Below are positions 44,142 through 49,357 of a stretch of DNA of 53,444 bases, piece after piece. The notes under the pieces are model-generated. The model had not been told where the DNA came from. It did not search any database and saw nothing but the letters and a program-made list of their open reading frames with translations. Made by a program: the position numbers and the translations under genes. Each line of letters opens with the position of its first letter. Position 1 is the first letter of the stretch. This stretch comes from an uncultured Eubacterium sp. (lineage in GTDB: Bacteria > Bacillota > Clostridia > Oscillospirales > Acutalibacteraceae): positions 1-53,444 of the forward strand of contig CALWVQ010000006.1 in NCBI GenBank assembly GCA_944385025.1, given 5' to 3'.

Positions 44142-44561
44142 CTATATTTTCAAGTTATGACGATTTTTAATTTTAAGACGCTCCATCGCCCTTGCCAAGT
44201 TAGCCTGTGAATGATAATACTCAAGCTGGGACTGTTTCTGTCTGAGTTCCTCTTCGGCTCGCATTTTTGCCTCCTGCGCACGGCGTTCGTCGATTTCCTC
44301 GGGAAGTTCGGCAGAAATGCACACAAGAGTGGCAACATTGTCAAGAAACTCAAGAAAACCGTTGCCCACAAAGGCGTCTATGGTATTTCCGTCTTTATCA
44401 ACAATTTTCATTTCGCCCTCGTCGATGGGCAAAACACAGTTTTCGTGGTGGGCAAGAAATCCCTCAAGCCCTCTGTCAACGTGTGGAACAACCAAAGACT
44501 GCGCCTCGCCGTCAAAAAATATTTTGTTTGACGCAATTATAGTAAGTTTAAAGGTATTCAT
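44142..44561 (-). CDS. atpC: F-type ATP synthase epsilon subunit
   Basis: Central-stalk subunit of F1 that links gamma to the c-ring and can inhibit hydrolysis. 139 residues: N-terminal beta sandwich with FFDGEAQSLVVPHVDRGLEGFLAHHE and C-terminal helical hairpin from about residue 90. Last gene of the atp operon, 11 bp after atpD. Confidence 0.96.
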   Translation of the reverse strand: MNTFKLTIIASNKIFFDGEAQSLVVPHVDRGLEGFLAHHENCVLPIDEGEMKIVDKDGNTIDAFVGNGFLEFLDNVATLVCISAELPEEIDERRAQEAKMRAEEELRQKQSQLEYYHSQANLARAMERLKIKNRHNLKI

Positions 44562-46857: not shown

Positions 46858-46865
<8 letters not shown>

Positions 46866-48885
46866 TGTTTACCTTCTTATAATTATCTACTGCGCTTATA
46901 ATCTGTTCCTTAATATCGTCGTCAAGAACCTTATCCTTTTCAATAGCTGCACTGATTTGAGGATAAGTAGAATTGATATACTCAAGCATATCCGTTTGAT
47001 ATTTCTTGATTTCGTCCACAGGAACATCCACAAACTTTCTGTTAGTAGCGGCAACAAGAGTCACTACCATATCTGTTAAAGACAAAGGATGATTACGGGG
47101 CTGTTTCAAAAGCTCCATAAGTCCCTTTCCGTATACAAGGTTTGCTTTTGTTTCTTCATCAAGGTCAGACGCAAACTGGGTGAACACTTCCATCTCCCTG
47201 TACTGTGCCAAGTCGATACGAAGTGAACCCGCTGCCTTTTTCATAGCTTTGGTCTGTGCGGCGCCGCCTACACGTGATACTGAAAGTCCTACGTTTACGG
47301 CGGGACGCATACCGCTGAAGAACAAGTCGCTTTCAAGGAATATCTGACCGTCCGTAATTGAAATTACGTTTGTAGGAATATAAGCAGATACGTCGCCGTC
47401 TTGTGTTTCAATAATAGGCAATGCTGTAATCGAACCGCCGCCCAACTCATCGCTCAGCTTACTTGAGCGTTCAAGCAAACGTGAGTGAAGATAGAAAACG
47501 TCGCCAGGATAAGCCTCACGGCCCGGACTTCTTTCAAGAAGAAGTGAAAGGGCACGGTAAGCTACTGCGTGTTTGCTTAAATCATCGTATACAATAAGGC
47601 AGTCCCTGCCCTGATACATAAAGTGCTCTGCAAGCGCTGTTGCAGAATAAGGTGAAATGTACTGAAGAGAAGCAGGGTCGGAGGCAGTAGCGCACACAAC
47701 GATGGTATATTCCATTGCTCCTGCTTTTTCAAGGGTATTAACAAGTTTTGCAACGCTGGATGCTTTCTGACCGATTGCATTGTAAATACAAATAACGCCC
47801 TTGCCTTTTTGGTTCAAAATTGTATCTACAGCGATAGCCGTTTTACCTGTCTGTCTGTCGCCGATGATAAGTTCTCTCTGTCCTCTTCCTATCGGGAACA
47901 TAGAGTCTATAGACAAAATACCTGTTGCCATAGGAGTATCAACGCTCTTACGGTCAACGATTGAAGGAGCACTTTGTTCAACAGGACGATAGTCCTCAGC
48001 CTTAATATCCCCTTTGCCGTCAATAGGCTCGCCGAGAGAGTTTACGATTCTTCCTATAAATGCCTCGCCGACAGGAATACCCGCTTTTTTGTTAGTTCTC
48101 TTAACTCTTGTACCCTGATGTATTCCAACATCAGAACCGAATAGAATAACGCCGATTTGGTTTTTCTTAATATCCTGCACCATTCCCTTTACGCCGTTTT
48201 CAAAAACAACGATTTCGCCGTACATAGCGTGGTCAAGTCCGTGAATTGTGGCAATACTGTCGCCTACACGAACAACGGTGCCGATCTGCTCGCCGTCTGT
48301 TCTGTATTCAAAATCCTTAATATCCTGCTTTAAGACAGCTATAACATTGCCGCTGTCAACGTTACTCTCACGAGCGGTTTTCATTACTTGGCTTTTGATT
48401 TTATCAAGCTTGCTTTTAAGACTGAAGTCATATTCCCTGCCTGAAACACGAACAATAAAACCGCCTATAAGCTCTTTATCCTCAACAATTTCAACATTTG
48501 CCTTGCTGGCATTTTCCTCTTTGCAGATAAACTCCTTGATACCTTCAAGCTGTTTTTCATCAGGAGGAGTTACGCAGTAAATAACTGCGTCGGCTACATT
48601 GCTTTGCTTGTCAAGAACGTGGATATACTCTGTAACAATATCCTCAAGGGCATCAATCCTGCAGTCTTTTGACAAATCAAATATAACCTTTTTTACTGAC
48701 GGGGCAAACAAGTCATCAACAACTTTTTCCTTCTCCGCAGGCGTGATATTGGGGTTGTCAAGAGTGTCTACAAGTTCGCTGCTTGATTTAACTATTCTTA
48801 AAGCATCCTCAAGTGATGACACACTGGTTTGTGAAGCAAGCAGTGCGTCAATGTATTTACTAAAACTACTGCTCACTGCTGTCAC
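46858..48885 (-). CDS. Fused F-type ATP synthase delta-alpha subunit
   Basis: One continuous 675-codon frame that joins delta (AtpH) to alpha (AtpA). Residues 1 to about 168 are a whole delta/OSCP subunit: N-terminal helical domain (SSFSKYIDALLASQ) and C-terminal domain ending KELIGGFIVRVSGREYDFS then KSKLDKIKSQVM. From about 175 a whole alpha subunit follows: AVLKQDIKDF, IGTVVRVGDSIATIHGLDHA, Walker A GDRQTGKT (342-349), IYNAIGQKASSV and the ALSLLLERSPGREAYPGD region. Linker is only about 6-10 residues, near base 48370, with no stop, frameshift or obvious internal ribosome site. Start is GTG at 48885, or GTG at 48876 with AAGG better spaced; both overlap atpF. Normal stoichiometry is one delta to three alpha, so the fusion is structurally odd. 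Confidence 0.95.
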
Positions 48886-49357
48886 TACCTTCGTTTAAAA
48901 ATTTATCGTAAATTTCGCTGTCAGTTTGGGCAGACACTTTTTCGCCGATAATTTTTTCTGCAGTTTCCATTGCAAGCTGGGCAATATCCTCTTTAACGGC
49001 AAGTCTTGCCTTTTCGCTTTCAATACGGCTTGAACGCTTAGCGTCCTCTTTAAGCTTATCTGCCTCTGTTTCAGCTCTTTTTACTATCTTGTTATATTCG
49101 TTTTTAGCATCGGCTCTTGCCTGTGCTATAATTTCTTTTTTCTCATTTTCAACGCCTGAAAGCTGTGACTTATAATTGTCGTACAGCTCCTGTGCGCTTT
49201 TCTCTTTTTCCTCTGCTTCCTTAAACTGACTGTCTATCATTTCTTTACGCTTTGCAAGCACTTTTTTGATTGGCTTGAAAAGGAAAAGTCTCATAAGGAC
49301 AAACAGAATTATCAGGTTAATCAGAGACCAGAGAATGTTTATGTCAAAATTAAGCAT
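48866..49357 (-). CDS. atpF: F-type ATP synthase b subunit
   Basis: Peripheral-stalk subunit: one N-terminal membrane helix (about 7-27, LWSLINLIILFVLMRLFLF) then a long charged helix that dimerises and binds delta. 163 residues, 38 bp after atpE, overlapping the fused delta-alpha gene by up to 20 bp. Not fused to delta, unlike the b-delta fusion of mycobacteria. Confidence 0.95.
   Translation of the reverse strand: MLNFDINILWSLINLIILFVLMRLFLFKPIKKVLAKRKEMIDSQFKEAEEKEKSAQELYDNYKSQLSGVENEKKEIIAQARADAKNEYNKIVKRAETEADKLKEDAKRSSRIESEKARLAVKEDIAQLAMETAEKIIGEKVSAQTDSEIYDKFLNEGSDSSEQ

Follow-up and report, generated by a model that had tools for sequence, protein, structure and literature searches.

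Fusion of the ATP synthase delta and alpha subunits in Clostridia and other Bacillota: conservation, graded architectures and possible consequences for the number of peripheral stalks

Introduction

In an uncultured Eubacterium sp., the delta and alpha subunits of the F-type ATP synthase are encoded by a single gene, and this fusion is real, conserved in the genus and evolving as one reading frame. Each alpha most likely carries its own delta docking site and, by analogy with an engineered enzyme described below, more than one b2-a stalk may bind.

In the textbook F-ATPase, three alphas go with a single delta, a single stalk and a single a subunit, and the N-terminal domain (NTD) of delta normally caps the alpha3beta3 crown. 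The puzzle raised by a sequence-only reading of the locus, i.e. how an F1 with three alphas would deal with three deltas, is a genuine one.

The fused gene and its operon

The window, i.e. the whole stretch of DNA that was analysed (53,444 nucleotides of contig CALWVQ010000006.1, assembly GCA_944385025.1), includes an F-ATPase operon on the minus strand in the order a-c-b-[delta-alpha]-gamma-beta-epsilon, with the following features:

46858..48885, minus strand: gene for the fused delta-alpha subunit, atpH and atpA sharing one frame; starts with GTG and encodes 675 aa
48604..48885, minus strand: delta N-terminal six-helix domain, residues 1-94 (predicted structure)
48367..48603, minus strand: delta C-terminal domain (CTD), residues 95-173, b-docking (Pfam OSCP to residue 166, and predicted structure)
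48355..48366, minus strand: linker, residues 174-177, from the last delta helix to the alpha N-terminal helix (predicted structure, pLDDT about 50)
48382..48384, minus strand: in-frame ATG close to the junction (Met168), not conserved among relatives
46873..48354, minus strand: alpha subunit part, residues 178-671, with the P-loop GDRQTGKT and the SRVGG arginine intact
48866..49357, minus strand: b subunit, 163 aa, with a C-terminal YDKFL segment
49396..49617, minus strand: c subunit, 73 aa
49655..50545, minus strand: a subunit, ORF of 296 aa
45975..46865, minus strand: gamma subunit, 296 aa
44573..46006, minus strand: beta subunit ORF, the listed start being the first possible one
44142..44561, minus strand: epsilon subunit, 139 aa

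The fused ORF of 675 aa has no internal stop; its first 20 bp are shared with the end of the b gene, and a GAAGG word closely precedes the start. In Pfam, OSCP (PF00213) was matched at residues 23-166 (84.8 bits against a cut-off of 22.3, profile positions 24-171), while the alpha/beta N-terminal, nucleotide-binding and C-terminal domains lie within residues 200-668; in NCBIfam, atpA (TIGR00962) was matched at residues 178-671 with 757.3 bits (cut-off 484.45). The GDRQTGKT P-loop is invariant across 43 aligned proteins, and the fused gene is the sole OSCP match in the source genome, which is 97.8% complete. Two other identities were considered for the protein: membership of the N-ATPase alpha family (TIGR03324) failed, with 598.6 bits below the cut-off of 750.5, and a mycobacterial-type b-delta fusion was ruled out, b being encoded by a separate gene.

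In the predicted structure, the helices of the delta NTD run from 9-17 to 77-94, with pLDDT mostly of 76-87, and the delta CTD is made up of strands 97-104, 128-135, 143-147 and 150-153 and of helix 156-173. This last delta helix ends at residue 173 and the alpha N-terminal helix covers 178-196; model confidence is low over the short join, and much of the alpha nucleotide-binding part lies below pLDDT 50. The single-chain models of the source protein and of a short fusion (L104) are weak as a whole, with mean pLDDT values of 70.0 and 68.3, respectively, and the assembly is outside their reach; their delta parts are convincing. The sequence-only reading had described a full delta running in frame into a full alpha, across a short linker, in an otherwise normal operon. 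The first point is borne out by the ORF and by the Pfam and NCBIfam matches, the second agrees with the predicted limits of the two helices, and the third with the finding that a, c, b, gamma, beta and epsilon adjoin the fused gene.

Conservation in the genus and evolution of the junction

The fused protein was matched in 78 of the 80 genomes of the genus, including two (G017 and G024) with weak matches at 25-28% identity. Seventy of the 78 matched loci were fetched, the eight other genomes containing only alpha or delta pieces (G035, G038, G045, G056, G069 and G070) or the two weak matches. Of the fetched loci, 68 had 400 aa or more in the alpha core and were classed, L070 and L071 being dropped. 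The classed loci comprise 59 full fusions, 7 short fusions (delta CTD and alpha) and 2 loci with separate genes. A search of the genus with PF00213 gave one match each in 73 of the 80 genomes: 68 are located in fused frames, two are free deltas of 176 aa (G002 and G052) and three are fragments (G035, G045 and G069), of which those of G035 and G045 continue from delta into alpha. Moreover, an open frame of the same kind is found in isolate genomes, such as those of Oribacterium sinus DSM 17245 and Clostridium fessum SNUG30386.

The evolution of the junction was followed in 30 pairs of distinct full-fusion genes with no shared member, covering a total of 1005 codons. Changes at codon positions 1, 2 and 3 amounted to 218, 165 and 465, respectively, and the codons with a single change were synonymous in 254 cases and non-synonymous in 109, when about 21% synonymous would be expected at random; in the strict first 14 junction codons the corresponding counts were 96 and 56. 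Since codon changes are mostly synonymous and at the third position, the junction is read as protein.

Separate genes were found in two loci of the genus, L062 and L064, where an in-frame stop followed directly by an ATG lies between delta and alpha and which are nested inside fused relatives, and also in L282 and L283, from the same family as the source. The existence of relatives with separate atpH and atpA, which the earlier reading had considered as evidence against the fusion, has thus been confirmed (2 of the 68 genus loci, plus L282 and L283), but it does not imply an error: beside the large fused majority in the genus, these loci are to be understood as evolutionary change. Furthermore, the fusion is not indispensable, since two members of the genus and close relatives have separate genes.

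Spread, classes and origins

The fetched loci were searched with our own profile HMMs, built for alpha, for b and for the two delta domains (NTD and CTD). The 296 locus records correspond to 274 distinct genes, the repeats including L001, which is the source gene, and 21 groups with identical cores. The distinct genes were divided into 101 full delta-alpha fusions, 63 short fusions, 23 triple fusions (b-like part, delta CTD and alpha) and 87 separate genes, in a set that was gathered around fusions and gives no frequency estimate; median lengths are 674 aa for full, 597 aa for short and 736 aa for triple fusions. A fusion was called full on the basis of a delta-NTD match or of more than 70 residues ahead of the delta CTD match. 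The borderline L204 and L222, with about 70 residues and no NTD match, were called short, as was L237, where the first start codon appears only after 95 open codons. By eye, L150, with an out-of-frame extension, and L221, with a chance extension, were assigned to the separate genes and L226 to the short fusions. Alpha ORFs that scored less than 450 bits or had fewer than 400 aa in the core (L070, L071, L188 and L230 among them) were left unclassed.

Fusions were found across Clostridia and other Bacillota. The 80 named loci comprise 44 full fusions, 3 short fusions and 33 with separate genes; the full form is present in Parablautia sp. Marseille-Q6255 and Caproiciproducens galactitolivorans YR-4, as well as in the O. 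sinus and C. fessum isolates mentioned above, and in many Lachnospiraceae MAGs, and the listed loci of Mediterraneibacter, Faecalicatena and Enterocloster have separate genes. Frequencies were obtained from partly overlapping samples by means of an alpha-only query and open frames of more than 565 aa without a stop, frames that their sequence showed to be due to chance being removed and the undecided G1048 and G485 not being counted. In these samples, fusions were detected in 14 of 48 alpha-bearing genomes of the source's own family (160 searched; 14 of 14 sequence-checked), 25 of 69 in its order (157 searched; 22 checked), 22 of 100 in the class (157 searched; 20 checked) and 11 of 138 in the phylum (159 searched; 10 checked).

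Some particular arrangements were also observed. L160 (3536-5884, plus strand) is a full fusion of 782 aa with two tandem delta NTDs before the CTD, and in L233 (G563) an alpha frame of 681 aa has two tandem delta CTDs ahead of alpha. Two F-ATPase alphas, one fused and the other separate or differently fused, coexist in G226 (L152/L153), G849 (L202/L278), G557 and G808.

On an alpha tree of 159 rows, which predates L282-L301 and leaves them out, the fused and separate states require 15 changes; for the label 'separate', 8 changes or more are forced by starred branches. As far as can be judged from the sequences, the delta-alpha fusion is likely to have had several origins. L285 is likely a fresh fusion, in which a full delta of the ordinary type continues into an alpha that still has its own initiator-like methionine, and internal initiation at this methionine is still conceivable. 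Within the genus, L062 pairs with a fused row at 99/95 support in a tree of 63 rows, the alpha starts of L062 and L064 resemble those of ordinary separate alphas, and the separate L282 branches beside the source's half of the genus (91/94, not starred). L062 and L064 may represent a re-split, a retained ancestral state or recombination; likewise, the history of the genus may comprise a single fusion that was later split, more than one fusion event, or recombination.

Short fusions and the fate of the delta N-terminal domain

The NTD-less loci of the genus (L059/L061, L065-L067 and L068/L069) are each nested among full fusions. In the 63-row tree the NTD-loss label requires 5 changes, at least 4 of them forced by starred branches and one (L158/L159) placed outside the genus, and across the 159-row tree it requires 15, 10 of them forced. 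The predicted structure of L104 keeps the CTD fold, with strands 26-33, 57-64, 72-76 and 79-82 and helix 85-103. Wherever b was identified in a short fusion, the start of the fused gene lies in a range from 119 bases ahead of the b stop to 30 bases beyond it, and a search for free NTD ORFs upstream of the short and triple fusions gave none. When 45 genomes with short or triple fusions were searched for OSCP, 44 were matched (G238 gave no match), and in 40 of these 44 every match is in the fused gene; an additional free delta of 178-181 aa is present in G327, G557, G808 and G738, the first three of which also have a second, separate alpha. A split delta, with a free NTD elsewhere in the operon, was considered for G967, G976, G226 and G395, where OSCP matches reach upstream through stops, and was rejected, the upstream stretches inspected being the b gene, with no free NTD ORF.

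In several short-fusion operons (L155-L158 and L164-L166), the c ORFs are 123-151 aa long and have a signal-peptide-like N-terminal extension.

In full fusions, the NTD does not appear to be clearly decaying. The ratio of NTD to CTD tree length is 1.69 in the fusions of the genus and 1.39 in other full fusions, compared with 1.45 for the separate deltas as a whole and 1.31 for those of L085-L151, and the NTD rate relative to alpha is 3.63 and 3.22 in full fusions as against 3.33 in separate deltas. In pairwise comparisons, the NTD lagged the CTD more in full fusions than in separate genes in all four identity bins, these pairs not being independent. A relaxed constraint on the NTD after fusion is not claimed, the tree-length ratios being mixed. 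Since full fusions and separate deltas show much the same NTD evolution, a continuing role of this domain is favoured, which speaks somewhat against several stalks in the source protein.

Triple fusions

The third architecture is exemplified by three fusions of 736 aa:

L170:2574-4784, minus strand: triple fusion, 736 aa
L153:2901-5111, minus strand: triple fusion, 736 aa
L171:2333-4543, minus strand: triple fusion, 736 aa

L170-like proteins begin with a b-like transmembrane helix and a coiled coil (PF00430 at residues 3-95, E 9.9e-07), followed by the delta CTD (PF00213 at residues 152-230, E 2e-12) and then by a full alpha; PF00430 exceeds its cut-off in L170 and L153 but not in L171. The triple fusions form one clade, with a support of 100, and are spread over four families (f1, f19, f20 and f21) of the order. 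They are the only alpha in 17 of the 22 genomes concerned, a second alpha being present in 5. A separate b gene was found upstream in 20 of the 20 loci examined, its median length being 141 aa, compared with 161 aa for full and 165 aa for short fusions. The YDxFL-like tail of b is present in 100/101 full fusions, 48/62 short fusions and 58/84 separate genes, and in 0/23 triple fusions. Since a b-like anchor is carried by what is usually the only alpha, three membrane-anchored alphas per F1 are to be expected, and to judge by this domain order the triple-fusion F1 should contain them unless the chain is cut.

Relation to known systems

The delta-alpha fusion as such is already known in its short form, so that the statement of the sequence-only reading that there was no established case does not stand. 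In Ueno et al. (2025, PMC12229609), an engineered Bacillus PS3 FoF1, delta-DeltaN-alpha, is described in which the delta NTD was deleted and the CTD fused to alpha, while Acidaminococcus fermentans and two UniProt entries are cited as natural short fusions. In that paper, the delta NTD, lying on the pseudo-threefold axis, is argued to limit the stalks to one; the engineered enzyme, expressed in the E. coli strain DK8, which has no atp genes, carried as many as three b2 stalks and three a subunits, with a mean of about 2 by gel, showed an H+/ATP ratio of 5.8 versus 3.0 and synthesized ATP at about half the pmf. The cryo-EM average of 1.26 stalks per molecule was attributed by the authors to grid loss, and they guessed from few sequences that nature may use the delta-alpha fusion too (PMC12229609).

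Residues 97-665 of the source chain align with chain I of PDB 9jc1, the solved structure of this engineered fusion, with a one-residue gap at the junction, the source linker being one residue longer; this alignment upholds the earlier view that the join is spatially plausible. In Foldseek, 9jc1_I also ranked first for the short-form model (TM 0.43-0.46), the alpha nucleotide-binding part of which is largely below pLDDT 50; the ranking lends slight support, since so much of the modelled alpha has such values. The PS3 and A. fermentans forms share with the source a delta CTD and an alpha in a single chain with a short linker, whereas the source keeps the whole delta NTD, which was removed in the engineered design and is said to be lacking in A. 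fermentans.

A different fusion, b-delta, has been described for Gordonia and some mycobacteria as a 'Rosetta Stone' case (PMC5709465; PDB 7jg5, chain d). The common feature is that delta is fused to another stator subunit of the same operon, and the triple fusion found here likewise joins a b-like part to delta. However, alpha is separate in the b-delta systems. In the source, delta is joined to alpha, of which each F1 has three copies, and the triple fusion unites a b-like part, the delta CTD and alpha in one chain. In the literature searched, with subscription papers and preprints outside the scope, neither a full-length delta-alpha fusion nor a b-delta-alpha triple fusion was found, nor were the genus-wide conservation, the wide spread, the several likely origins or the repeated NTD loss.

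Number of stalks

In the proposed mechanism, one polypeptide would act as both delta and alpha, its delta being the only one found in the genome. The three alphas per F1 would bring three delta CTDs, each beside its own alpha N-helix, and the F1 head would offer three b docking sites because each of the three alphas carries a delta CTD. In the full fusion of the source, three NTD copies would compete for one axial site; one of them would cap the axis, while b2 may still bind at the CTD docking sites of the remaining alphas, and the stalks could number from one to three. The earlier reading had listed three deltas, or two of them displaced, cleaved or never made, but had omitted that extra docking sites might recruit extra b2-a stalks. 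A delta-alpha chain with three CTD docking sites, one NTD on the axis and possible extra stalks is the best explanation at hand, and we hold it to be evenly poised between right and wrong.

Several findings point towards additional stalks: the sole OSCP of the genome is the fused one, the NTD has been lost repeatedly, and the b tail is kept in all but one of the full fusions. Moreover, the anatomy of the short fusions is the one that recruited several stalks in the engineered enzyme of Ueno et al., and the lineages without the NTD, as well as those with a b-like anchor, look like further steps toward fixed multi-stalk enzymes. On the other hand, the source NTD, the domain argued in PMC12229609 to limit the stalks, is intact, and b and a are ordinary single operon genes.

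The latter points would fit a single-stalk enzyme with one delta NTD on the axis, one b2-a stalk and the other two deltas idle, in which the fusion merely guarantees the presence and firm attachment of delta. The retention of the NTD in 59 of the 68 genus loci, its rate relative to alpha, similar to that of separate deltas, and the ordinary appearance of b and a as single operon genes are in favour of such an enzyme. However, the NTD-less lineages still keep the CTD on alpha, the triple fusion anchors an alpha that is mostly the only one and can hardly be called idle cargo, and the engineered short fusion did recruit extra stalks (PMC12229609). Idle deltas, the main rival of the multi-stalk reading, are a real possibility, though on balance a doubtful one.

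It is improbable that a mixture of fused chain and free alpha is produced, by proteolysis or internal initiation, with one alpha per F1 carrying delta. Start codons (ATG, GTG or TTG) were sought in an interval that opens 20 codons ahead of where the delta CTD match ends and closes at the alpha core, L226 being left out of the counts. Such a mixture could make use of the in-frame Met168 at the source junction and of the ATG found in this interval in 57 of 101 full fusions; starts with a Shine-Dalgarno-like word were present in 15/101 full, 14/62 short and 5/23 triple fusions, the first figure being somewhat above the 8/101 of a control interval inside alpha. However, 65 of 87 separate alpha genes have such a start by the same rule, Met168 has no Shine-Dalgarno-like word upstream, and the interval contains no start codon at all in 26/101 full, 9/62 short and 3/23 triple fusions (distinct genes). 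Since these fusions have a junction without a start codon, alpha cannot generally be made by internal initiation.

Finally, an artefact, in which a missed stop or an assembly indel joins two normal genes, could invoke the junction stops of L062 and L064 but deserves practically no credence, being already refuted, as the sequences of relatives indicate, by the recurrence of the open frame in 59 of 68 genus loci and in isolate genomes and by the coding-type evolution of the linker itself.

Implications

On a wider scale, multi-stalk F-type ATP synthases may be natural and fairly common in anaerobic Bacillota, with several delta-alpha origins, an NTD-keeping form in the source and a monophyletic triple-fusion branch with three anchored alphas; this is a tentative proposal, to which we assign slightly less than an even chance. 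V/A-type ATPases have two or three peripheral stalks. If several stalks are also present here, one would dock per non-catalytic subunit, as in those enzymes, but in an operon built of F-type subunits, and the triple-fusion enzyme would be V-ATPase-like in plan with F-type parts only.

As shown by Ueno et al. (2025, PMC12229609), the one-stalk rule is broken, and H+/ATP doubled, by a designed delta-alpha fusion. Natural forms are graded, from the full fusion to those in which the NTD is lost or a b-like part is added. Since these fusions are conserved, widespread, graded and present in cultured isolates, the evolution of the ion-to-ATP ratio via the number of stalks would become directly testable.
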